DNA of 64,000 bases from the NCBI RefSeq assembly GCF_001598915.1, contig NZ_BDAP01000002.1, positions 868,001-932,000 of the forward strand, given 5' to 3'. Below, in pieces: positions 6,651 through 27,345 of the stretch; position 1 is the first letter of the stretch; every line of letters begins with the position of its first letter. Source of the stretch: Williamsia muralis NBRC 105860 (GTDB lineage Bacteria; Actinomycetota; Actinomycetes; Mycobacteriales; Mycobacteriaceae). A program made the translations under genes and the position numbers. Under the pieces are notes generated by a model. That model was not told where the DNA came from and did not search any database. It saw only the letters and a list, made by a program, of their open reading frames with translations.

Positions 6651-7942
6651 ACGGCTATCGCTACCGGTCCGGCGTCAGGGTGACGCCGGTACCACAGCAT
6701 GAGGCCGCCGACAGCGCCGGCCACCGCCGCCGTCACGGCGCACCACACAAGCGCCGTCGCGAGATCGGCCTCTGATGTCAGGTCGTACAGGCCTCCGACT
6801 CCGACGGAGGCGATCAGGCACCCGAGTCCGGCGATACTGTTGAGCATTCCGAAGTGCGCGCCCAGATTGTGTTCGCCCGCAAGGGCTGCGACGGTGTCGC
6901 GCATCGGGGGCACCATCAGCATCTGGCCGATGTGGAGCAGTGCAACCCATCCCGCGACCGCGGCGTATTGCCATGCGGTCTTGTGGGTGAGCCCGTCTGC
7001 GGCGGCAGGCACGAGGAACGACACGGCCATCACCGAGAGTCCACCGATCACCGCCTCGCGGTGGCCGATGCGATGGACAAGCCGAACCACCGGTCGTTGC
7101 CACAGGATGACCATCAACGCAGCGCCGGCATAGAACCATCCCAATGCGCTCTGGTTGCCGGCGATGCTCTCGAGTTCAGCGGGCAGCATCAGATACAACA
7201 AGCTGTATGCCGACAGCTGCGCCGCGCACAGTGCGGCGTAGGCAAGAAACGCTCTGTGCGACAACACTGACCGCCACACCGCCCAGATCCGGCGCTCGGC
7301 TGGGGTGACCGATCCCGGCTGCATCGCCGACGTTGTCACAGTCGCGGGGAACCACCGAAAGAACGCAATCCACAACCCGGCGAAGAGCACCGCGGCCGAG
7401 CAGGTGGTCCACGCGAATGGCACGCCGAGCAAGGCTGCGCCCAGGAGCGGGCCGAGAACGGTTCCGGTGCGGCTGCACATCTGTTCGAGGCCGAACAGCT
7501 CGGTGCGGCGCATGATGTTCTGTCGCTCCAGCAGCGCACCGTAGCTGGCATTTGCCGCTTCGACCGCAGGCGCGAACAGCGCGGCCGCCAGCCCGATGAG
7601 CAACACGCCGACAACAACTCCGACAAGGGATTCGGCGAAACCGACGGCGATGAACCCGACGATTCGCACGGCGATTCCGATGAGGACGATCCGCCTGACA
7701 CCGAACCGGTCGGCAAGGCTGCCACCAACGAAGAACATCCCCTGCTGGGAAGCCATGCGCAGACCGAGAATCAGCCCGACGATCCATGCTGCAAAGCCGA
7801 GACCCTCAGAAAGGTGGACGGCGAGAAAGGGCACCACGAGATAAAAGCCGATGTTGAACAAAGTCATCGATGCCAACATCAAACGCACGGGAGCCGGCAG
7901 AGCAGCAATTCGCGTCAGGCCCGCCGGCACGCCGATCACCAA
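6647..7942 (-). CDS. MFS transporter, MdtH-like exporter
   Basis: Major-facilitator protein of about 430 residues with twelve predicted membrane helices. The family A-motif is visible after helix 2 as GGSLADRFGVRRIV. The N-terminal reading VRLMLASMTLFNIGFYLVVPF resembles drug and siderophore exporters of the MdtH/EntS type. The start is either TTG 7942 or GTG 7939; neither has a strong ribosome-binding site. It converges on the iron-siderophore receptor gene and the two stop codons overlap. Siderophore export is possible from context, but the sequence only supports a generic exporter. Confidence 0.88.
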   Translation of the reverse strand: MVIGVPAGLTRIAALPAPVRLMLASMTLFNIGFYLVVPFLAVHLSEGLGFAAWIVGLILGLRMASQQGMFFVGGSLADRFGVRRIVLIGIAVRIVGFIAVGFAESLVGVVVGVLLIGLAAALFAPAVEAANASYGALLERQNIMRRTELFGLEQMCSRTGTVLGPLLGAALLGVPFAWTTCSAAVLFAGLWIAFFRWFPATVTTSAMQPGSVTPAERRIWAVWRSVLSHRAFLAYAALCAAQLSAYSLLYLMLPAELESIAGNQSALGWFYAGAALMVILWQRPVVRLVHRIGHREAVIGGLSVMAVSFLVPAAADGLTHKTAWQYAAVAGWVALLHIGQMLMVPPMRDTVAALAGEHNLGAHFGMLNSIAGLGCLIASVGVGGLYDLTSEADLATALVWCAVTAAVAGAVGGLMLWYRRHPDAGPVAIAV

Positions 7943-8153
7943 TGCACCCGTATCTCGCTTCCGATGACGCCACTGCGGCGGCGCACGTCAGCGTTGGGCG
8001 GCGCGCGCTGCCCTCATCCTGCCAGCCGGCCACATGCTCTTGTGGTCAGGGCCTGTCCACGGTATCGGGGTGCCACGCTGGGTGAGTCGATCAGCGGAAA
8101 CGTTGTGTTGCAACGACTTGAAGATTGTCGCAGGTGGTGCTTCCTTCCGGACA
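7943..8153. other. Intergenic region without a recognised gene
   Basis: Both strands were read between the MFS start and the hairpin at 8154. Short frames are present on both strands but none has a ribosome-binding site or a family-like sequence. It probably holds the promoter of the MFS gene. Confidence 0.4.
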
Positions 8154-8193
8154 ATCCTGGCCGTGTGCAGCGTTGGCTACACACGGCCAGGAT
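8154..8193 (-). terminator. Perfect 14-bp hairpin after the small peptide gene
   Basis: ATCCTGGCCGTGTG at 8154-8167 pairs perfectly with CACACGGCCAGGAT at 8180-8193 around a 12-nt loop. There is no T-run, as is common for actinobacterial terminators. It lies 40 bases past the stop codon of the 29-residue minus-strand gene and is the natural end of that transcript. Confidence 0.7.
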
Positions 8194-8233
8194 CAGTTGG
8201 TCACCGGCGAGATGACCGGAACCGAAGATCGGA

Positions 8234-8323
8234 CTAAGCGTCGCTACCTGTGACGATGACCTCCGCGAAATCCCACAGTGCGTTGTCGATGGATTCGATG
8301 AAGTAAAAAATTGCAGACAGCAT
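8234..8323 (-). CDS. 29-residue acidic amphipathic peptide
   Basis: A very short gene read on the minus strand. It begins MLSAIFYFIE, continues SIDNALWDFAEVIV and ends TGSDA. A strong ribosome-binding site (GGGAAAGGA) stands 5-7 bases before the ATG. A promoter-like pair lies at 8399-8426 and a perfect hairpin follows the stop. The peptide has five acidic residues and no lysine or arginine. Plotted as a helix, I5, F8, I9, I12, L16, F19 and I23 fall on one face, and E10, N14, D18, E21 and T25 on the other. There is no signal peptide. Corynebacterial PorA and PorH channel-forming peptides share this small, acidic, amphipathic, signal-less character, so a cell-wall porin subunit is one possibility. 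A membrane-active regulator is another. No homology is claimed. Confidence 0.6.
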   Translation of the reverse strand: MLSAIFYFIESIDNALWDFAEVIVTGSDA

Positions 8324-8368
8324 TACGGTCCTTTCCCGACCCTGATTTGTTTGTTGCCCTGTGATGCA

Positions 8369-8426
8369 ATGAAACGAGATTAATATCTCTGTTTCATGAA
8401 TATCATGAGTGTGTCGGCAATCACAA
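8369..8426 (-). promoter_or_regulatory. Promoter and palindromes upstream of the small peptide gene
   Basis: On the minus strand TTGTGA (8421-8426) and GATATT (8399-8404) are spaced by 16 bases, a plausible sigma-A-type promoter. Overlapping the -10 is the 13-bp palindrome CATGAATATCATG (8395-8407). Just downstream, at 8369-8397, arms ATGAAAC and GAGAT pair with ATCTC and GTTTCAT, with one bulged base, around ATTA. The region is far more AT-rich than its neighbours. Either element could be a repressor site or a 5' untranslated hairpin. Confidence 0.5.
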
Positions 8427-8501
8427 GGGGTTGAGTAATTCATCGCGGAGTGGACAACATTCGCACGATGACTTTCATCGCCCGGCCAGGTCTGTCTCAG
8501 C

Positions 8502-9143
8502 ATGGGAAGCAATTTTTCTGCGGTCTGGCCGGTTGTCCACGCTGAGCGCGAGCGTTTGGTGAAAGATCTGAGCGACATACCTGCAGATGCTTGGGCGAAG
8601 CCATCACTGTGTCCGGGCTGGGATGTGCACGACGTTCTGGCCCACCTGATCGACGGCGCGATGACCACCCGTCTGGGCTTCGCGCGTCGGATGATGACCA
8701 ATCGGTTCGACTTCGATCGCGACAACTCGGCGGGGATAGCCCAGCAAAAGCGCGCTGATCCCCGACGGACGCTAGAAGCGTTGGGTGAGGTGATCACGTC
8801 GACCAGGACGCCGCCGGCCAACTCGAAGACGCGGCTCGTCGAGATATTTGTCCATGGTGAGGACATCCGGCGGCCGTTGGGCATCGATGTGAGCTATCCG
8901 GTGGATCCGGTGGTCGAGGCGCTGAGATATCAGGTGAAAACCGCGGTCGGTTTCGGTGGGGGACGGGAACGGGTGGTCGGGCTGCGTCTGACCGCCACCG
9001 ACTCGGACGTGGTGTTCGGGGGTGCTGACGCCGATGAGGTGCGTGGGCGGGCGATCGATCTGCTCCTGGCGGTGTCGGGCCGTCCGGTTCCACCCGGCGC
9101 GTTGGTGGGGCCGGGCGCGGGGAAGCTCGCGACGGCCGGGTAG
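8502..9143 (+). CDS. Maleylpyruvate isomerase-fold (TIGR03083) protein
   Basis: Protein of 213 residues with the N-terminal domain of mycothiol-dependent maleylpyruvate isomerases (DinB-like four-helix bundle). The hallmark block LCPGWDVHDVLAHLIDG is present, including a metal-ligand histidine. A later HGEDIRRPLG block is also typical of the family. Members use mycothiol or act as detoxification transferases; the substrate cannot be inferred. It stands alone, divergent to the small peptide gene. Confidence 0.85.
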   Translation: MGSNFSAVWPVVHAERERLVKDLSDIPADAWAKPSLCPGWDVHDVLAHLIDGAMTTRLGFARRMMTNRFDFDRDNSAGIAQQKRADPRRTLEALGEVITSTRTPPANSKTRLVEIFVHGEDIRRPLGIDVSYPVDPVVEALRYQVKTAVGFGGGRERVVGLRLTATDSDVVFGGADADEVRGRAIDLLLAVSGRPVPPGALVGPGAGKLATAG

Positions 9144-14650: not shown

Positions 14651-15319
14651 ATGTCGAGTTATCATGTGGACGTGACACTCGTACAAGCCGCAACTGGCCA
14701 GGTCAGGGCCGGTCTTCGGGAACGCAAGAAGGTCCAGACCCGTGATCGGCTCATCGCGGCTGCCCTGAAGTTGTGTGACGAACAAGGCTTCGAGGCCACC
14801 ACGGTTGACCAGATTTCGGACGCCGCGGACATCTCGCCCCGAACGTTCAACCGGTACTTCGCGACCAAAGAGGACGTTGTGCTCGCGCCGGTCGAGGACA
14901 TGATCCTGGCCATGACCGACTCCCTCGACGCGCAACCGCGCACCGGAAACGAGATCGAGGCACTGATCAACGCGCAGGTGCAGATCCTCGGCGGACAATG
15001 CCCCGTCGGCTCGGTGGATCTCTCCCGGTTCGAGACGATGAACCGGATCATCCAGAACGCGCCGGCGGTGAATGCGCGTGGCATGGAACTCAGCGACAGG
15101 AAGTTCCGCAGCATCAGCGACAAGGTTGCCGAGCGGATGGAAGTGCCGGCCGACGACGCGCGGGTGCGTGTCATCGTCTCGGTGTACATGTCGCTCATGC
15201 ACATCTCGCTCGACACCTGGCGGTGCGGGCAGGCCGGCTCGATAGCCGATTCGACCGTGGCGGCGGACACGCTCAAGGCCACGTACCAGACGTTCCGTGA
15301 GGTCGCCAAGAACCTCTGA
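14651..15319 (+). CDS. TetR-family repressor next to drug exporter
   Basis: Regulator of about 222 residues from ATG 14651; a GTG at 14672 (MTLVQAATG) is an equal alternative because neither start has a clear ribosome-binding site. The helix-turn-helix is clear: TRDRLIAAALKLCDEQGF then DQISDAADISPRTFNRYFATKEDV. The C-terminal ligand domain is not diagnostic. It is divergent to the DHA2 exporter, which it probably represses. The 123-bp gap includes the small palindrome CCAATTGG near 14630 and distant GGCAAT/ATTGCC arms. The following SWIM-operon gene starts only 46 bases after its stop, so read-through transcription is possible. Confidence 0.9.
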   Translation: MSSYHVDVTLVQAATGQVRAGLRERKKVQTRDRLIAAALKLCDEQGFEATTVDQISDAADISPRTFNRYFATKEDVVLAPVEDMILAMTDSLDAQPRTGNEIEALINAQVQILGGQCPVGSVDLSRFETMNRIIQNAPAVNARGMELSDRKFRSISDKVAERMEVPADDARVRVIVSVYMSLMHISLDTWRCGQAGSIADSTVAADTLKATYQTFREVAKNL

Positions 15320-15365: not shown

Positions 15366-16697
15366 GTGGGCACACAGCGATGGCGGGCCGAGCAGGTACT
15401 GGCGCTCGCCCCCGACCCGGGTTCGCAGGCGGCGGGCCGCAAACTCTCCGTATCGGCGCCGTGGTCCTCGCAGGGCTGCGCCGACCAGGTGGTGTGGGGG
15501 CTCTGCCGAGGCAGCGGTAGAAATTCGTACCAGACGATCGTCGATCTGAGCGGCCCTGCCTACAAGTGCTCCTGCCCTTCGCGGAAGTTCCCCTGCAAAC
15601 ATGCGCTCGGGCTGATGTTGCTCTGGACTGCGGGCGGTGTGCCCGAAGAACCGCAGGTCGCAGACTTTGCCAGACCGTGGATTGATGAGCGCATAGCGAA
15701 AGCCGCCGCGGCCCCCTCCCGCCCGGTCCGAGCGGAACCGAAAGATCCCGAACGCGCGGCCCGCACTGCACAGCAGCGAGAACTCCGCGTCGCCGGCGGC
15801 CTGGACGAGTTCGAGATGTGGCTCGATGACCAGGTGCGCAGCGGCTTGGCCGGTGCGGAGGCGGATCCTTACCGGCGTTTCGATCCGGTGGCGGCGCGAC
15901 TCGTCGATGCGCAGGCGCCTGGCCTGGCCCGCCGGGTGCGTGAGCTGCCTGCGATGGTGACGGGCACCCGCTGGCCCGAGCGGTTGCTCCGAGAACTGGC
16001 GATGCTTCGGTTGTTGGTGCAGGCACATCGATCGTTGCGTGACCTCGATCCGGCGATGGCCGCGAACGTACGCAGGCATGTCGGTTACCCGGTTGCCCGG
16101 GCCGACGTGTTGGCGAGCTCACCCGTGAGCGACACCTGGAAGATCGTGGCCGTCCGTGACCGGGATGATGAACAGCTGGTCACCCGCCGGATCTGGTTGT
16201 GGGGCAGCGGGACCGGACGACGTGCGGTGGTGTTGTCGTTCGCGCCCACCACGGCCGGGCTCGACGGCCGGTTCCTCGCAGGCATGGTGTTCGACGGCCC
16301 GCTGTACTTCTACCCGGGGTCGCCCCCGCTGCGCGCGCTGGTTGCCGACGGCGACCTCGGCATGAGGCCGCCGGATCCGGCCGGTTCAGGGTCAACCCTC
16401 TTCGGGGACACCGTCGCGGCCGCACTCGCCGATCGGGCGGACGCAATAGCGAAAGACCCCTGGCTGCAGACGTTTCCGGTGGCCATTGTCGGGCGCCCCG
16501 CCGTCGCTGACGGTGTCAGGCTGCTCGTCGACGACGACGGCGCGTCGGTGAGCCTCGACGCGTCCGACGACCGCTGGTACACCCTGCTGGCCATCTCCGG
16601 CGGCCATGCCGTGCAGGTATTCGGCGAACTGGGACCGGAAGGGCTCGATCCGATTGCAACCGAACCACTTTCGGTGCAGCAGACAGGTGCGGCGTGA
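15366..16697 (+). CDS. SWIM zinc-finger protein (YehQ-like)
   Basis: First gene of a five-gene overlapping operon, 443 residues from the GTG at 15366. The frame extends to 15297, but only from 15366 does the sequence match the expected family opening (TQRWRAEQVLALAPDPGSQAAGRKL). The zinc-binding SWIM motif CxCx6CxH lies at residues 68-79 (C68, C70, C77, H79). The rest is uncharacterised and mostly alpha/beta. SWIM domains bind DNA or proteins. In E. coli a related protein, YehQ, is encoded beside YehL (AAA), YehM (DUF5682) and YehP (VWA), the same partners found here. Function is unknown. It overlaps the DUF5691 gene by 4 bases. Confidence 0.88.
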   Translation: MGTQRWRAEQVLALAPDPGSQAAGRKLSVSAPWSSQGCADQVVWGLCRGSGRNSYQTIVDLSGPAYKCSCPSRKFPCKHALGLMLLWTAGGVPEEPQVADFARPWIDERIAKAAAAPSRPVRAEPKDPERAARTAQQRELRVAGGLDEFEMWLDDQVRSGLAGAEADPYRRFDPVAARLVDAQAPGLARRVRELPAMVTGTRWPERLLRELAMLRLLVQAHRSLRDLDPAMAANVRRHVGYPVARADVLASSPVSDTWKIVAVRDRDDEQLVTRRIWLWGSGTGRRAVVLSFAPTTAGLDGRFLAGMVFDGPLYFYPGSPPLRALVADGDLGMRPPDPAGSGSTLFGDTVAAALADRADAIAKDPWLQTFPVAIVGRPAVADGVRLLVDDDGASVSLDASDDRWYTLLAISGGHAVQVFGELGPEGLDPIATEPLSVQQTGAA

Positions 16698-18181
16698 ACG
16701 CCTGGGACGAATTGGTATCCGCGGCCACGGTGGGGGTGGGTGGCAAAGCGCTCGAGATGACCGACTTCGACCCGGCCATCGCCGAACCGGTGAGCCGGAT
16801 CGACCGCAGAGACGCTGTTGCAGCGGTCTTCTCCATCGCTGCCCTCGACACGGTGGCCGTCCGGGCGGGGATGCCGACCGGACCTCAGGTTGACGCGTTG
16901 GCGCCCGCACCGGACGAGGACCGTCCGCTGATGAACGACCGGCTTGCCGGACTGCTCGGTCAGGCACTCGATTCCGGTGACGAGCTGGCCACCTGGGCCA
17001 TCGAATCCATGGCTGCTCGAGACCTTCGAGTGCCACCGGTGATGATCCCGGCGCTGCTGCAACGCACTGCCAGACAGGTCCGCATCAGACCTGCAGTAGC
17101 GGTCTTGGTCGGTGAACGGGGACGGTGGATCAGCGATGTCAGTGACATCCCCGGCACCCTCCCGGCCCGTGATCTCGCTGCCGAGCCCGATGTCGATGTC
17201 GAGGAGGTGTGGTCGCTCGGAAACACGCCGGCGCGGGTGGAGGTGTTGCGTCGTTGGCGTACAGCGGATTCGGCCGAAGCCCTGCGTCGGCTTCAGGAGA
17301 CCTGGGCATCGGAGCCCGGTGACGTCAGGGCGGCGTTGCTCGGCGCGCTCGAGGTAGGGCTGTCGTCCACCGACGAGGCATTTCTCGAGATGGCCCTCGA
17401 CGACCGCAAGGGATCGGTGCGGGCCGGTGCCGCCCGCCTGCTCACCAAGATTCCCGACTCCGGATTGCAGAAACGGATGATCGAGCGAGCCCGCGCTGTC
17501 CTGGTCGGTTCCGGTGGTGGCCGCCGGTGGCGTGTCGCACTGGTACTTCCCGAGGGTGCCGACCAGGCCGCTCGCCGTGACGGCATCGATCCCACACCGC
17601 CGAGGGGAACAGGGGCGGGTGGATGGCTTGCCAGTCAGGTTCTCGAAAGAGCGCCACTGTCGTTGTGGGAGGGCGTCTTCGGCAAGGATCCCGGCTCTTT
17701 GGTCGAGGCGGTCGCCGATGACGACGCCGACATCGTCCTCGGCGCGTGGAGTGCTGCCGCCGTCGCGCAACACAGCGCGACGTGGGCTCGGGCTCTGTAC
17801 AAATGGAAAGGCGCCGAACCCGGCCTTGTCGGAGTGCTCGACGAGGCAGAGAGGGGTGAGGCGGCCGTGTGGTGGTTACGCAACCGACGCCCGCCCGGAG
17901 CAGTGCTGCCGCACCTACCTGTGCCGTGGCCGGACGAGGTCGCCGCGACAGCCCTCAACCTCGTTCTCCGAGAGTCGATCACGGGCTCGGGAACACAACT
18001 CTGGCATTGGCGTGGGCTGGTCGACCACCTGCGTACCGGCCTCCCCGTCGGACCTGGTCACCGATGGATCGAACAGATCGACGCGGTCACCGACCGGATG
18101 AAGGGCAGCTGGCCCCAGTTGCTCGAACCACTCAAGTGGGCGCTGATCCTGCGCGCCGCGATCACCGAGGAGATGAAGTGA
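16694..18181 (+). CDS. DUF5691 helical-repeat protein
   Basis: Soluble protein of 495 residues, predicted almost all alpha-helical. Segments such as VEVLRRWRTADSAEALRRL, DVRAALLGALEVGLSSTDEAF and SVRAGAARLLTKI look like successive HEAT-like repeats in the middle third. The family assignment rests on position in this operon type and general character, since the domain has no short diagnostic motif. It starts inside the end of the SWIM gene and its stop overlaps the GTG start of the AAA gene (GTGA). It is probably a scaffold that brings the SWIM protein and the ATPase together; that role is inferred. Confidence 0.78.
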   Translation: MNAWDELVSAATVGVGGKALEMTDFDPAIAEPVSRIDRRDAVAAVFSIAALDTVAVRAGMPTGPQVDALAPAPDEDRPLMNDRLAGLLGQALDSGDELATWAIESMAARDLRVPPVMIPALLQRTARQVRIRPAVAVLVGERGRWISDVSDIPGTLPARDLAAEPDVDVEEVWSLGNTPARVEVLRRWRTADSAEALRRLQETWASEPGDVRAALLGALEVGLSSTDEAFLEMALDDRKGSVRAGAARLLTKIPDSGLQKRMIERARAVLVGSGGGRRWRVALVLPEGADQAARRDGIDPTPPRGTGAGGWLASQVLERAPLSLWEGVFGKDPGSLVEAVADDDADIVLGAWSAAAVAQHSATWARALYKWKGAEPGLVGVLDEAERGEAAVWWLRNRRPPGAVLPHLPVPWPDEVAATALNLVLRESITGSGTQLWHWRGLVDHLRTGLPVGPGHRWIEQIDAVTDRMKGSWPQLLEPLKWALILRAAITEEMK

Positions 18182-19287
18182 CAGACCCCGATGCGTCCAC
18201 GGTGAACACAGACATCCTGCGACCACATGCAGAGCAACTGTATGCGCACGAGCTGGCGGCGCTCGCCGACACCGACGACCGGCCCCGGCCGCCACACTGG
18301 AATCTGTCCCCAACAGCGGTGGTGACCTATCTGTTGGGCGGCACGCTGGACGACGGGACGACGATCTCTCCCAAATACATCGGGCCCCGGCGCCTGGTCG
18401 AGGTGGCGGTCGCGACACTTGCGACCGACCGGGCGCTGCTGCTGCTCGGGGTACCCGGTACAGCCAAGACGTGGATGTCCGAGCACCTCACAGCCGCCAT
18501 CAGCGGCCGCTCCACCCTGTTGATCCAGGGCACCGCCGGTACTCCGGAGGAAGCGATTCGCTACGGATGGAACTATGCCCGACTGCTGGCCGAGGGCCCG
18601 AGTGAGCAGGCGCTGGTTCCGTCACCGATCATGACCGCGATGCGTGAAGGGAAGATCGCACGCATCGAGGAACTCACTCGCATCCCGTCCGATGTACAGG
18701 ATGCGCTCATCACAGTGTTGTCGGAGAAGTCACTCCCGATACCCGAACTCGACACCGAAGTGCAAGCGGCCAAGGGATTTTCGGTGATCGCCACCGCGAA
18801 CAACCGGGACCGTGGTGTGAACGATCTGTCGTCGGCGCTTCGTCGTCGTTTCAACACGGTGGTCCTGCCGCTGCCCGCGACCGCCGACGAGGAGGTCGCG
18901 ATCGTGACGCAACGCGTCCAAGCCCTCGGGCAGACGCTGGAATTGCCGGAGATCCCGAGTGCCTCCGATGAGATCCGCCGGGTGGTCACGGTGTTCCGCG
19001 AACTGCGGTCGGGACTGACGGCTGACGGCAGGACCCGGGTGAAGCAGCCGTCGGGCACCTTGTCGACGGCCGAGGCGATCTCGGTGATCACGCACGGTGC
19101 GGTGATGTCGGCCCACTTCGGCGACGGTGTGCTCCGACCCTCCGACACTGCCGCGGGCATCCTGGGCGCCGTGGTCAAAGACCCGGTCGCCGATGCGGTG
19201 GTGTGGACGGAGTACCTGGAAGCCGTTGTGCGCGAACGCAAGGATTGGGCCGACTTCTACCGGGCGTGCCGAGAGGTCGGATCTTGA
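18178..19287 (+). CDS. MoxR-family AAA ATPase (YehL-like)
   Basis: Cytoplasmic AAA+ ATPase of 369 residues from a GTG at 18178 that overlaps the previous stop codon. The frame upstream of that GTG is the shadow of the DUF5691 gene. Walker A is GVPGTAKT (residues 91-98). The Walker B region reads KIARIEELTRIP, sensor 1 is VIATANN, and the arginine-finger block is SALRRRFN. MoxR ATPases act as chaperones that activate or remodel a target together with a VWA protein, which this operon also encodes. Catalytic motifs look complete, so it should hydrolyse ATP. Confidence 0.93.
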   Translation: MTDPDASTVNTDILRPHAEQLYAHELAALADTDDRPRPPHWNLSPTAVVTYLLGGTLDDGTTISPKYIGPRRLVEVAVATLATDRALLLLGVPGTAKTWMSEHLTAAISGRSTLLIQGTAGTPEEAIRYGWNYARLLAEGPSEQALVPSPIMTAMREGKIARIEELTRIPSDVQDALITVLSEKSLPIPELDTEVQAAKGFSVIATANNRDRGVNDLSSALRRRFNTVVLPLPATADEEVAIVTQRVQALGQTLELPEIPSASDEIRRVVTVFRELRSGLTADGRTRVKQPSGTLSTAEAISVITHGAVMSAHFGDGVLRPSDTAAGILGAVVKDPVADAVVWTEYLEAVVRERKDWADFYRACREVGS

Positions 19288-21686
19288 CGGCGGTGTCCGA
19301 ACTGAGTACCGGCACCACGCCACCGCAGGTGCTCGACACCGGGCGTCACGAAGATGTTGGTCCGGGCACCTACGTGCTCGGGATACGGCACCACGGGCCG
19401 GGTTCGGCCCGTGGGGTCCTGGCCGAGTTGAGTCGCATCGACCCGGACATCGTGCTGATCGAAGGACCGGCGGATGCCGACCCACTTGTGGGCTTCGTCG
19501 GGTCGGGCGAGATGTCGCCGCCTGTCGCCATCCTCGCGTATGCGGTAACCAAACCTGCGGTCGCGGCATTCTGGCCCTTCGCTGCGTTTTCTCCCGAGTG
19601 GCAGGCCATGCGCTGGGCCGTCGACAATGCTCGGCCGGTCCGATTCTGTGACCTCCCTGCTTCGATGGTGTTGGCCCACAGCGGTGGTGGTGGCCGGAGC
19701 GGGACCGAGCCGGCGGACGATGACCTCACCCTCGACCTGGCCGAACCGGGTGGGCTCGACGCGGGTGCCCCCGTACGGACCGATCCCATCGGAGTGCTCG
19801 CCGACGCGGCCGGGTACGACGATCCGGAACGATGGTGGGATGACGTCATCGAAACACGCTCGGATGGTGGGGGTTTTGATGCCATCGCCGAGGCCATGAC
19901 CGCGTTGCGCGAGGAACTTCCGCCGGTGGGCGATCTTGATGAACGACTACACGAGGAAAGACGCGAGGCGCATATGCGGCAGGTGCTGCGCAAAGCGCTC
20001 AAAGAGCCAGACGTGCAGAAGGTCGCGGTGATCTGCGGAGCGTGGCACGCCCCGGCGTTGATGGGAAAGTTGCCACCTGCAACCGCGGATGCGAAAGTGC
20101 TGCGGGGCACTCCCAAGGTCCGGGCAAAACTGGCGTGGGTGCCGTGGACACACTCGCGACTGGCGTTCACCTCGGGCTATGGCGCCGGGGTGGTGTCGCC
20201 CGGTTGGTACCACCACCTGTTCACGCAGCATCAGGACGTGATCACCCGGTGGCTGATCAAGGTCGCACACCTGTTGCGCGCCAAAGACATCGCGATCTCG
20301 TCTGCGCACATCATCGAGGCCGCCCGGCTCGCCGAGAGTCTGTCGACGCTCCGGCGGCGACCACTGCCGGGGCTCGCGGAGGTGAGCGAGGCGACCGAGG
20401 CGGTGATGTGCGACGGCGACGACACGGTGATGCGACTGATCGCCGACGAGCTGGTGATCGGGGAACAGCTGGGGTCCACGCCGGCGGACGCCCCGACGGT
20501 ACCTCTGGAGGCGGATCTGCGGGCTGTTGCCCGTTCGGCCCGGCTCAAGATCGAGCCCATGGTGCGCGAGCTCGTGCTGGACCTGCGCAGACCTCCTGAT
20601 CTGGCGAAGTCGGTTCTGCTGCATCGGCTTGCAGCTTTGTCGATCGACTGGGGCGTTCCGGAAGACGTGAGCGGTTCGGGCACCTTCAAGGAGGGCTGGC
20701 TCGTGGCGTGGAAGCCCGATTTCGCGGTCGACATCGTGGTCGCATCGGCGTGGGGGACCACGGTGGAGGCCGCCGCGACCAACAGGCTGATCGAGCGCGC
20801 GGTGAAGGCATCCCGGCTGTCCGGGGTCACCGCTGTGCTCGAGCAGGCGCTTCTTGCCGACCTCCCCGCCGCGGTGAGCCAGGTGCTGAACGCTCTACGC
20901 GACCGCGCTGCGCTCGACCGCGATGTGGAGCATCTGATGAGTGCTCTGCCTGCCCTGTCACGGGCCTTGCGCTACGGCGATGTGCGAGGCACCGACACCA
21001 GCGCCCTTGCCGACGTCACCACATCGTTGCTGGTCCGGGTCTCCGCGGGACTGCCCGCTGCGATCACCGGACTCGGCGCGGACGCTGCCGCCGAGTTCCG
21101 GACGTTGATCGATCAGGTGCACGAGGTGACTGCGCTGCTCGAACAGGGCGGGGTGGCCAGAGAAGAAGCAGCGAACTGGCGTGGCGTGCTCCGCGGCCTT
21201 GCCGATCGGCGGGATCTGCACGGTTCTCTGGTCGGTCGCATCGTCCGAATCCTGCTCGACTCCAGGGAGATCGACGGCGATGAGGCGGCAACGCGTTTGC
21301 ATCGTGCGCTCTCGGTGGGTGCTGTGCCGGCGGACAAGGCTGCCTGGATCGACGGTTTCATCGGTGGGGGAGGCCTGCTGCTGGTGCACGATCGGTCGCT
21401 GCTGGCCGTCATCGACCACTGGCTGGCCGGACTGCCCGACGAGCAGTTCACCGAACTGGTCCCGTTGCTGCGGCGCACGTTCAGTGTGTTCGAGGCCGGA
21501 ATCCGTCGCAACATCGCCGAGTCGGTGAAGGGTATCGGCGGAGGTGTGGTGCAGGTGGCGGCTCCGTCGTCGGTCGACCCGGAGCGTGCGGCGCCCGCTG
21601 TCGCCGTTGTCGCGGCGCTGCTCGGGCTGTCTGCCCCGCAGCCGCCCACACTGCCGGCGGCGAAGGATGGCGCTGATGACTCCTGA
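19284..21686 (+). CDS. DUF5682 protein (YehM-like) with TraB/TIKI-like motifs
   Basis: Large protein of about 800 residues. The likely start is TTG 19284, overlapping the previous TGA (TTGA) with GAGAGG before it; GTG 19293 is the alternative. Two GxxH motifs, GIRH at residues 33-36 and GAWH at 252-255, flank a Glu in VLIEGP (Glu60). GxxH-E-GxxH is the signature of the TIKI/TraB/EreA/ChaN-like superfamily, and the second motif context, VAVICGAWHAPAL, resembles the VVGxGHxxG of TraB. The C-terminal 400 residues are helical and unassigned. It may be the enzymatic effector of the complex, for example a metal-dependent hydrolase. That role is inferred, not known. Confidence 0.82.
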   Translation: MTAVSELSTGTTPPQVLDTGRHEDVGPGTYVLGIRHHGPGSARGVLAELSRIDPDIVLIEGPADADPLVGFVGSGEMSPPVAILAYAVTKPAVAAFWPFAAFSPEWQAMRWAVDNARPVRFCDLPASMVLAHSGGGGRSGTEPADDDLTLDLAEPGGLDAGAPVRTDPIGVLADAAGYDDPERWWDDVIETRSDGGGFDAIAEAMTALREELPPVGDLDERLHEERREAHMRQVLRKALKEPDVQKVAVICGAWHAPALMGKLPPATADAKVLRGTPKVRAKLAWVPWTHSRLAFTSGYGAGVVSPGWYHHLFTQHQDVITRWLIKVAHLLRAKDIAISSAHIIEAARLAESLSTLRRRPLPGLAEVSEATEAVMCDGDDTVMRLIADELVIGEQLGSTPADAPTVPLEADLRAVARSARLKIEPMVRELVLDLRRPPDLAKSVLLHRLAALSIDWGVPEDVSGSGTFKEGWLVAWKPDFAVDIVVASAWGTTVEAAATNRLIERAVKASRLSGVTAVLEQALLADLPAAVSQVLNALRDRAALDRDVEHLMSALPALSRALRYGDVRGTDTSALADVTTSLLVRVSAGLPAAITGLGADAAAEFRTLIDQVHEVTALLEQGGVAREEAANWRGVLRGLADRRDLHGSLVGRIVRILLDSREIDGDEAATRLHRALSVGAVPADKAAWIDGFIGGGGLLLVHDRSLLAVIDHWLAGLPDEQFTELVPLLRRTFSVFEAGIRRNIAESVKGIGGGVVQVAAPSSVDPERAAPAVAVVAALLGLSAPQPPTLPAAKDGADDS

Positions 21687-22848
21687 TGAATCAGACCCGG
21701 TGGAAGACACCAGGCTGCGACGGTGGCGAATGGTGGTGGGCACTGCGGCGGATGAGCCGCTCGGGACGCCCGATCCCGGACACATGCAAGGAATGGATCG
21801 GTCGCTGGCCGCCCTCTACGAGTCGGACCGTTCGCGCAGAGGCGGCTTGGGCGGGTCGGCGCCGTCGGTGGCCCGTTGGTTGGGCGACATTCGAAAGTAC
21901 TTCCCCTCGAACGTGGTTCAGGTTATGCAGCGAGACGCAGTCGAACGTCTGGGCATCACCAAACTGCTCGCCGAGCCGGAGTTGATGGATACCGTCGAGG
22001 CGAACATCGAGATGGTGAGCACACTGATCGGGCTCGGCAAGGCCATCCCGGAGACGTCGAGGGCATCGGCGCGCGCTCTGGTCCGCAAGGTGGTGGACGA
22101 CGTCGAGCGCCGAGTGGCCGACCAGACGCGTGCAGCCGTCACCGGTGCGCTGAACCGGGCGGCAACCACGCATCGCCCGCGACCGGGTGACATCGACTGG
22201 AATCGCACGATCGCCAGGAATCTGAAGCACTATCAGCCGGATTACCGCACGGTGATCCCCGAGCACCTGGTTGGGCATGGTCGGCGGGCCCGACATCTGG
22301 GGCGCGACGTCATCGTGGCCATCGACCAGTCGGCATCGATGGCGTCGTCGATCGTGTACGCGTCGATCTTCGGTTCGGTGCTGGCATCGATGCGGTCGGT
22401 GAAGACCTCTCTGGTGCTGTTCGACACCGAAATCGTTGATCTCACAGACGAACTGGAAGATCCGGTGGACGTCTTGTTCGGCGCGACCCTCGGCGGTGGT
22501 ACCGACATCAACCAGGCGATCGCGTATTGCCAGGGCCTGGTCACCCGACCTGCCGAGTCGATCTTTGTCCTCATCTCCGATCTCTACGAGGGCGGCCTCC
22601 GAGAGAAGATGCTGGCCCGGGTCGCTGCCATGACAGCGGCCGGGGTGCAGGTCATCGTGCTACTGGCGCTGTCCGATGAGGGTGCGCCGGTATTTGATCG
22701 GGACATCGCAACGGCTCTGTCCGCCATGGGCATACCGGCTTTTGCATGCACACCCGACGCTTTCCCAGAACTTCTTGCGGTGGCCATCGGTCGCGGCGAC
22801 ATCGCGGCTTGGGCGACGTCGAAGGAGCTCGCGGCGCGTGGGATGTGA
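21676..22848 (+). CDS. VWA-domain protein (YehP/CoxE-like)
   Basis: Last gene of the operon, 390 residues from ATG 21676, which has AAGGA 8-12 bases upstream and overlaps the DUF5682 gene by 11 bases; ATG 21667 is an alternative. The N-terminal half is helical with a basic segment. The von Willebrand factor A domain begins about residue 210 with an intact MIDAS motif DQSAS at 217-221, a later Thr in GGGTDINQ and an Asp in LISDLYEGG. VWA partners of MoxR ATPases bind Mg2+ and present the client. Its TGA abuts the stop codon of the convergent siderophore-receptor gene with no gap. Confidence 0.92.
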   Translation: MTPDESDPVEDTRLRRWRMVVGTAADEPLGTPDPGHMQGMDRSLAALYESDRSRRGGLGGSAPSVARWLGDIRKYFPSNVVQVMQRDAVERLGITKLLAEPELMDTVEANIEMVSTLIGLGKAIPETSRASARALVRKVVDDVERRVADQTRAAVTGALNRAATTHRPRPGDIDWNRTIARNLKHYQPDYRTVIPEHLVGHGRRARHLGRDVIVAIDQSASMASSIVYASIFGSVLASMRSVKTSLVLFDTEIVDLTDELEDPVDVLFGATLGGGTDINQAIAYCQGLVTRPAESIFVLISDLYEGGLREKMLARVAAMTAAGVQVIVLLALSDEGAPVFDRDIATALSAMGIPAFACTPDAFPELLAVAIGRGDIAAWATSKELAARGM

Positions 22849-27070: not shown

Positions 27071-27345
27071 CGGTTGGTCCCCCCGGGCCTCGATCAACTG
27101 ATCCCAGACTACCTCGATGCTGACCATTTGTCGAACACGTGTTCGAGTACCGACAGTTGTGAGTGCCTCGACAGCACGAATCATTCTGCCGCGGCGCGGT
27201 ATTCGCCAGCCAATCGACTGTCGTGCTTCTCATCGGGTACGCGATCATCGCCGACGTCATGTCGGAGGCGTTGTCGACGTCGAAAGGCGTACCTCCACCG
27301 GGTGCGTAGCATCTGCGGACAAGGGCTGACGACGAAGGGCTTTTG
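27071..27345. other. Divergent intergenic region
   Basis: This gap separates the HNH protein and the F420-type oxidoreductase. No gene, long repeat or RNA-like structure was recognised. It should hold both promoters. Confidence 0.4.

Follow-up and report, generated by a model that had tools for sequence, protein, structure and literature searches.

A window of 64,000 nucleotides from Williamsia muralis NBRC 105860 (contig NZ_BDAP01000002.1, positions 868,001 to 932,000 of the forward strand) carries, on its + strand at window positions 15366-22848, five co-directional genes encoding a SWIM zinc-finger protein, a DUF5691 protein, a MoxR-type AAA+ ATPase, a DUF5682 protein and a VWA protein of the CoxE type. 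Judged from sequence, these genes specify a widespread and uncharacterised machine of the MoxR-VWA type, together with a newly recognised, probable enzyme, the N-terminal domain of DUF5682, which resembles the TIKI/TraB superfamily. The operon may encode one cytosolic, ATP-driven machine in which the MoxR-VWA pair works a TIKI-like hydrolase and the SWIM and DUF5691 proteins choose the client, a reading that we regard as evenly poised between right and wrong. The genes and their motifs are as follows (MIDAS, metal-ion-dependent adhesion site).

15366..16697, + strand: SWIM zinc-finger protein, 443 residues, start GTG at 15366 (Pfam SWIM PF04434, E 4.3e-6, 26.6 bits against a cut-off of 19.6)
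15567..15602, + strand: SWIM motif CSCPSRKFPCKH, of the form CxC...CxH
16694..18181, + strand: DUF5691 protein, start GTG, 4-base overlap GTGA (Pfam PF18944, E 1.1e-100)
18178..19287, + strand: MoxR-type AAA+ ATPase, start GTG, 4-base overlap GTGA (Pfam AAA_5 PF07728, E 5.5e-39)
18448..18471, + strand: Walker A motif GVPGTAKT of the MoxR protein
19284..21686, + strand: DUF5682 protein, start TTG, 4-base overlap TTGA (Pfam PF18934, E 5.9e-265)
19380..19394, + strand: DUF5682 candidate active-site motif 1, GIRHH (first His in 107/107 domains, second His in 105/107)
19461..19463, + strand: DUF5682 candidate active-site Glu, in LIEGP (invariant, 107/107)
19962..19976, + strand: DUF5682 candidate active-site motif 3, REAHM (R, E and M invariant, 107/107)
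20037..20048, + strand: DUF5682 candidate active-site motif 4, GAWH (G and H invariant, 107/107)
21676..22848, + strand: VWA protein of the CoxE type, start ATG, 11-base overlap (Pfam VWA_CoxE PF05762, E 2.4e-51)
22324..22338, + strand: MIDAS motif DQSAS of the VWA protein

Conservation and co-inheritance of the five genes

To place the operon, one genome per species from 84,980 species was scanned with eight DUF5682 proteins as queries, yielding at least 564 relatives. The best 80 of these were kept, giving 81 loci with the window, a set skewed to close relatives because the best matches were retained. All five families occur together in 76 of the 81 loci, and in each of the five incomplete loci (L065, L070, L078, L088 and L106) the contig stops on the side where the gene is lacking. 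The five genes are co-directional and in the window order in 68 of the 76 complete loci; in the other eight, from streptomycetes and their kin, a divergent SWIM-DUF5691 pair adjoins MoxR-DUF5682-VWA, an order kept in 80/80 cases. The operon also extends beyond Actinomycetota to Cyanobacteriota, Pseudomonadota, Deinococcota and Bacteroidota, at least five phyla in all, with examples in Leptolyngbya, Thiofilum, Deinococcus, Rhizobium, Methylosinus and Hymenobacter. An earlier note, drawn from the letters of this stretch, had read the five genes as an uncharacterised molecular machine and had counted a failure to co-occur outside close relatives as refuting this. The genes do co-occur far outside close relatives, and the reading as an uncharacterised machine, with a MoxR-VWA pair at its core, is supported.

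In Fusobacterium (Fusobacteriota), the SWIM, MoxR, DUF5682 and VWA genes are accompanied by a 638-residue open reading frame (ORF) of no assigned family in the place of DUF5691. A small hypothetical gene, which the window operon does not have, lies between MoxR and DUF5682 in Hymenobacter (L130, 8374-8985) and Deinococcus (L131, 8747-8983). On the Methylosinus plasmid pOB3b3, the operon's VWA gene is split over three unannotated ORFs (L136, 11157-12382), and insertion sequences lie further along.

The families of the five genes were confirmed with Pfam, and their coordinates and strand are also right, as are the overlaps of 4, 4, 4 and 11 bases that the earlier note had taken as a sign of strict co-expression and complex formation. 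The overlaps suggest co-expression, the first half of that claim, but do not prove a complex, for which natural fusions are the stronger evidence. SWIM and DUF5691 are joined in one ORF in 17 of the 76 complete loci (Nocardia, as at L041, 5899-8799, and Micromonosporaceae) and also in Hymenobacter, and DUF5682 and VWA are joined in six loci from some actinomycetes (L021 and L023-L027); both fusions argue for a single complex. Two of the window genes have a second possible start: GTG at 19293 for DUF5682, which would leave a 5-base gap to MoxR instead of the overlap, and ATG at 21667 for VWA.

Over 82 loci, the distance matrices show correlations of r 0.78-0.90 between the five families, and for none of the ten family pairs did any of 999 permutations reach the observed value; common descent and shared species history account for part of these correlations. 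The median distance is lowest for MoxR (0.30) and VWA (0.47), intermediate for DUF5682 (0.72) and highest for SWIM (1.03) and DUF5691 (1.45), a gradient that fits a conserved motor combined with fast-changing recognition parts. The DUF5682 protein of the near relative L033 is 97% identical to that of the window. Among 296 Actinomycetota genomes, DUF5682 was found in 21 and DUF5691 over cut-off in 18, all within those 21, with three sub-threshold DUF5691 matches outside. Three of the DUF5682 genomes have no DUF5691 over cut-off: G204, with the fusion and weak types, G124, with the E. coli type, and G259, where DUF5682 lies on a 4.4 kb contig; fusion and window types were assigned here from the loci, since E-value alone does not part them. 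No conserved sixth gene was found when flanking ORFs of at least 90 residues from the 80 loci were clustered. The widest cluster reached 17/80 loci, on the opposite strand at the VWA end, and the recurrent flanks look like gene order shared within a genus (Nocardia, Streptomyces) or like ordinary genes.

The functional motifs on which the earlier note had leaned are conserved across the set, counting ORFs above 200 bits (one MoxR and one VWA match below 200 bits were excluded). The MoxR protein carries the Walker A, Walker B, sensor and arginine-finger features of MoxR-type AAA+ ATPases. Walker A is present in 80/80 and the arginine-finger motif in 79/80; Walker B is present in 80/80, always in an unusual form with E-E instead of the usual D-E, as in the FEE of E. 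coli YehL. The closest solved chains are Midasin (1.8e-19) and NorQ (4.4e-8). In the VWA proteins, the MIDAS DxSxS is intact in 79/79, the T motif in 74/79 and the D motif in 76/79; in the window protein, VWA_CoxE spans residues 193-409 of 434, with no Pfam domain after it. The zinc ligands CxC...CxH occur in 73 of 77 SWIM ORFs. This pattern alone is unspecific, fitting 30/1133 ORFs above 200 residues in the comparison loci, true SWIM genes among them. DUF5691 is a probable helical scaffold, with one stretch that appears HEAT-like by eye.

Sister forms of the system

The E. coli genes yehLMPQ constitute a sister form, in which the fifth slot is taken by the DUF4132 protein YehI. The earlier note had credited E. 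coli with four of the five components; DUF5691 indeed has no match in E. coli, used as a control genome, but because YehI stands in the place of DUF5691 all five slots are filled. Both forms combine MoxR, DUF5682, VWA and SWIM in one operon with the order MoxR-DUF5682-VWA and the same set of DUF5682 motifs. They differ in that SWIM comes last in E. coli, in DUF4132 taking the place of DUF5691, and in the YehM-type DUF5682, whose N-terminal part is 30% identical to that of the window. Outside the finger, profiles of window-type SWIM and E. coli-type YehQ proteins resemble each other along 143 columns (pairwise E 8.6e-4, probability 23.6%), scoring 38.7 where the highest null scores were 29.5 and 30.8. 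A comparison of DUF5691 with DUF4132 proteins gave a score of 29.5 (E 0.045; null maxima 25.9 and 24.9) from a match confined to one HEAT-like stretch. Of 5,426 complete E. coli genomes, 5,162 (~95%) contain the 6.3 kb operon (yehLMPQ) over 80% or more of its length. In E. coli K-12 (L032, 3411-6270), a second DUF4132 gene adjoining yehI is annotated as the pseudogene yehH.

The two forms were compared in a sample of 299 Pseudomonadota genomes centred on G297, the genome of L107, in which DUF5682 exceeded the cut-off in 12 genomes. Window-type DUF5682 (E <1e-190) occurs in six of them (G297, G328, G382, G411, G496 and G553) and E. coli-type DUF5682 (E ~1e-100) in seven (G422, G431, G451, G454, G467, G496 and G546), G496 carrying both at separate places. 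DUF5691 over cut-off is found in 6/299 genomes, exactly the six with window-type DUF5682, with sub-threshold matches also in G309 and G509. DUF4132 is found in 9/299, comprising all seven genomes with E. coli-type DUF5682 and two, G307 and G500, with no DUF5682 match. The DUF5691 and DUF4132 companions thus partition the two sister forms. The E. coli-type genes are ordered either DUF4132-MoxR-DUF5682-VWA-SWIM or MoxR-DUF5682-DUF4132-VWA-SWIM, with one to three DUF4132 copies, and one system is spread over two contigs. At L202, L203, L207 and L208, DUF4132 genes stand without the other families within the surrounding 16-20 kb.

Two further forms were distinguished. In the third (class B; L113, L114 and L120), DUF5682 and VWA are a single polypeptide, a very large ORF of 1629-2024 residues precedes MoxR (L113, 12757-17643; L114, 1386-7457; L120, 529-6342), and a SWIM-motif ORF, recognised by pattern only, follows it. 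The large ORFs gave no Pfam match in L113 and L114, which were scanned, and as a three-protein set were unlike DUF4132 and DUF5691 in profile comparison. The fourth form (class C; L116, L117 and L121) is of the weak type and has the order VWA-MoxR-DUF5682. A link of class C to TerD was dropped: a TerD-domain gene lies beside L116 only (7136-8869), and the scanned neighbours of L117 and L121 include none.

A TIKI-like domain in DUF5682 and the proposed machine

In Pfam, DUF5682 is a family of unknown function. Its N-terminal domain carries the ordered motifs GIRHH, LIEGP, FSPEW, DLP, RExxM and GAWH, beyond which lies a long C-terminal region. Conservation was assessed in 107 DUF5682 domains (90 window-type, 14 E. 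coli or fusion type and three weak type), taken from the window, L032-L112 and the larger comparison loci as matches with E up to 1e-10 and a span above 350 residues. Ten residues (H, E, S, E, D, R, E, M, G and H) are invariant in 107/107, class C included. TraB proteins show GxxH, E, RNxxW and GxxH at a similar spacing, and a spacing pattern, drawn up post hoc from the motifs seen, fits 34/37 TraB proteins and 101/107 DUF5682 domains, against 30/1703 flanking ORFs.

Profile comparisons point the same way. A 37-sequence TraB profile matched the DUF5682 alignment A5 in the C-terminal motif block (pairwise E 1.9e-6, probability 89.6%, score 52.9) and the 107-sequence DUF5682 alignment in the N-terminal motif block (pairwise E 2.8e-6, probability 88.4%, score 50.2), these E-values being for single comparisons and the two alignments sharing sequences. 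The corresponding nulls scored 25.4 and 22.9 for the best of 57 families of flanking ORFs, 33.7 and 30.5 for the best of 20 column shuffles, and 17.9 and 17.2 for reversed TraB. From these profiles and motifs, the N-terminal domain of DUF5682 probably belongs to the TIKI/TraB superfamily, an assignment that is new here and that gives the putative hydrolase of the earlier note a likely family. According to PMC6254334, TIKI enzymes have a 2His/2Glu site and carry a variety of appended domains. With the members of this superfamily (TraB, PrgY, GumN, Tiki; Ere, RRSP), DUF5682 shares GxxH, E, R[EN]xx[MW] and GxxH in the same order and with TraB-like spacing; it differs in being tied to an AAA+ motor, in its long C-terminal region and in falling under the Pfam TraB cut-off.

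EreA was set aside as the closest relative. It reached E 0.07 at the matching motif, yet two of the 57 null families equal this value. EreA and TraB are taken as related (PMC6254334). EreA is itself weak against the TraB profile (E 0.15 and 0.043), so the failure of DUF5682 in the EreA test says little.

These features suggest a working model. The MoxR hexamer would be plugged by the VWA protein, whose MIDAS would grip a client peptide, as modelled for NorQ-NorD; according to parts of PMC9976466 and PMC13036017, a finger of the VWA protein plugs the MoxR ring there and the MIDAS is the proposed client-binding site. MoxR-vWA pairs are generally said, in a passage of PMC7159879, to alter the conformation of a captured protein. 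DUF5682, a single polypeptide with VWA in some actinomycetes, would sit on the VWA protein and may hydrolyse a peptide or ester bond in whatever the motor opens or presents. SWIM, together with DUF5691 or, in the E. coli type, with DUF4132/WGR, would select the client, which is probably nucleic-acid-associated, and the physiological role would be stress maintenance rather than day-to-day metabolism. In Deinococcus radiodurans, one WGR gene and one DUF4132 gene are listed as strongly upregulated on DdrO depletion in a section of PMC8533742, which gives a possible lead towards DNA damage. More speculatively, the system may be an ATP-gated hydrolase of a new kind, in which a MoxR-VWA motor controls a cytosolic TIKI protease or esterase and SWIM and HEAT/WGR subunits aim it at clients on nucleic acid; it would exist in two sister forms and have been overlooked in E. 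coli, where ~95% of genomes carry it. We put this forward tentatively and consider it rather doubtful.

Several points weigh against the proposed machine and its enzyme. The TIKI assignment of DUF5682 rests on profiles and motifs. The TraB local alignments cover 39-47 columns each and one block per comparison, never both, and the flanking-ORF families used as nulls are uncurated clusters, some probably non-coding frames. An initial set of eight TraB sequences gave a weak result (E 0.0024, probability 12%), and the spacing pattern fits 0/11 EreA proteins. The cut-off of Pfam TraB (PF01963) was not reached, with matches in 2/42 DUF5682 members and a best E of 0.048; the unrelated HTH_MCM7 also matched 2/42, at a better E of 0.013. 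DUF5682 had no match among PDB sequences and, like TraB, lacks the first Glu found in the E-x-H of the RRSP site. No SWIM gene was seen in the class C operon, nucleic-acid targeting leans solely on family knowledge of SWIM and WGR, and no phenotype of the system was found in the literature searched.

No paper in the open PMC collection mentions DUF5682 or DUF5691, and three mention DUF4132; earlier notice is possible in subscription papers, most of which lay outside this search, and in supplements. A search of the open PMC literature for the yeh gene names returned no functional study among the titles found, the matches being mostly personal or species names. According to parts of the respective papers, a yehM mutation is listed among copper-evolved E. 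coli populations (PMC12409786) and yehQ is among the genes cloned in a butanol-tolerance study (PMC6442406), neither of which shows a function. MoxR-VWA pairs are widespread and few have a known client. This one brings its own probable enzyme, and its output could therefore be assayed directly. Its sister form is near-core in E. coli, with no function found for it in the literature searched. If DUF5682 is an active TIKI enzyme, the system would be a MoxR-worked protease or esterase, a combination not found in the same literature, and DUF5682, DUF5691 and the YehI/MolR group (DUF4132) would then share one context.

Alternative roles and the surroundings of the operon

The operon could instead be an anti-phage or anti-plasmid conflict system, a fifth ternary kind of MoxR-vWA system with DUF5682 as the third component and its hydrolase domain as the effector, which we consider unlikely. 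Ternary MoxR-vWA systems are known (PMC7159879), and like those described by Kaur et al. 2020 the operon combines MoxR, vWA and a third conserved protein in fixed order. That third protein, however, is DUF5682, and not the VMAP, iSTAND, FtsH or beta-propeller of the four published types, by Pfam analysis of the five window proteins. In the published types the vWA protein bears variable effector domains; the window VWA shows none, having no Pfam domain past VWA_CoxE, and belongs to a slowly evolving family. The window MoxR has a sub-threshold match to the beta-propeller-type bpMoxR (24.5 bits, cut-off 27), and the main text of PMC7159879 contains no word starting with SWIM, yeh, DUF56, DUF4132, TIKI or TraB.

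The distribution of the system bears on the same question. DUF5682 is patchily spread, as the counts in Actinomycetota (21/296) and Pseudomonadota (12/299) show, and relatives occur in 35 records of a plasmid collection, some of them chromosome-sized. This fits a conflict system, but the near-universal presence of yehLMPQ in E. coli does not. Typical defence genes are not known to be so near-universal within one species. With DUF5682 in 4-7% of the species sampled from each of two phyla and yehLMPQ in nearly all E. coli genomes, the system is accessory from one species to the next but stably kept in at least one of them. Viral contigs gave no match to the system, and a search of them for TraB found nothing. 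The sole match in a phage record, MT835988 (L137, labelled Bacteriophage sp., with MoxR-DUF5682-VWA), looks like a bacterial fragment because MgsA and DUF5717 genes adjoin the system, and a phage-borne copy was rejected accordingly.

PADLOC gave no significant match for the five proteins (best E 0.026). Some flanking genes do match PADLOC models, in a scan of 119 called genes from 30 loci (up to two per side, up to 450 residues each; 25 of 36 matched families shown). These matches are scattered, with mad2 and CARF3--CARF in two genes each, mad3 and mad6 in one each, a few others, and many PD-T4-6 models in one flank gene each (perhaps the same kinase); since the scan has no background rate, it is weak evidence either way. 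Of eight flank representatives examined, six exceeded the cut-off in metabolic, transport or modification families, one was a sub-cut-off P450 and one matched nothing. The defence device suggested in the earlier note is thus not favoured.

A maturation chaperone, in which MoxR-VWA would remodel one dedicated enzyme for metal or cofactor insertion as in NorQ-NorD and CoxD-CoxE while DUF5682 carried the metal or bound the client, also seems improbable. Several well-studied MoxR-VWA pairs act in this way, by the accounts in parts of PMC9976466, PMC13036017 and PMC7159879; the window VWA is of the CoxE family, and DUF5682 occupies, by fusion, the N-terminal place proposed for the client-binding domain of NorD. 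Work from 1990, as cited in PMC8533742 and PMC7824862, had linked molR, a WGR relative, to the use of molybdate. The operon shares with NorQ-NorD, CoxD-CoxE and RavA-ViaA a MoxR AAA+ protein and an adjacent MIDAS-bearing VWA, but differs from them in the added DUF5682, SWIM and DUF5691 and in that no client enzyme was found adjoining. Known MoxR-VWA maturation pairs adjoin their client gene. Here no client gene is conserved beside the operon, the widest flank cluster being the opposite-strand one at the VWA end noted above, and a maturation role needs no invariant catalytic-type residues in DUF5682.

That DUF5682 has a TIKI-like fold without catalysis, the five proteins forming a pure protein-remodelling complex, is very unlikely: DUF5682 lacks the first of the two Glu in the 2His/2Glu set at the usual place and PMT is a known inactive TIKI relative (in part of PMC6254334), but the ten invariant residues persist in E. 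coli and fusion types of 24-28% overall identity to the window, which would be difficult to account for if there were no active or ligand site.

Around the operon in the window, the downstream neighbour of VWA is a periplasmic binding protein gene on the opposite strand (Pfam). The upstream TetR gene ends at 15319, at the distance of 46 bases before the SWIM start given in the earlier note, but it is a local neighbour: a similar TetR adjoins the operon in 2/81 loci, the window and the near relative L033, and control by TetR was rejected on this basis. No LexA box within two mismatches of the consensus was found near the operon start. A perfect actinobacterial LexA-like palindrome by the same consensus, TCGAACACGTGTTCGA, lies at window positions 27131-27146, more than 4 kb past the operon, and may mark an SOS-controlled gene there.

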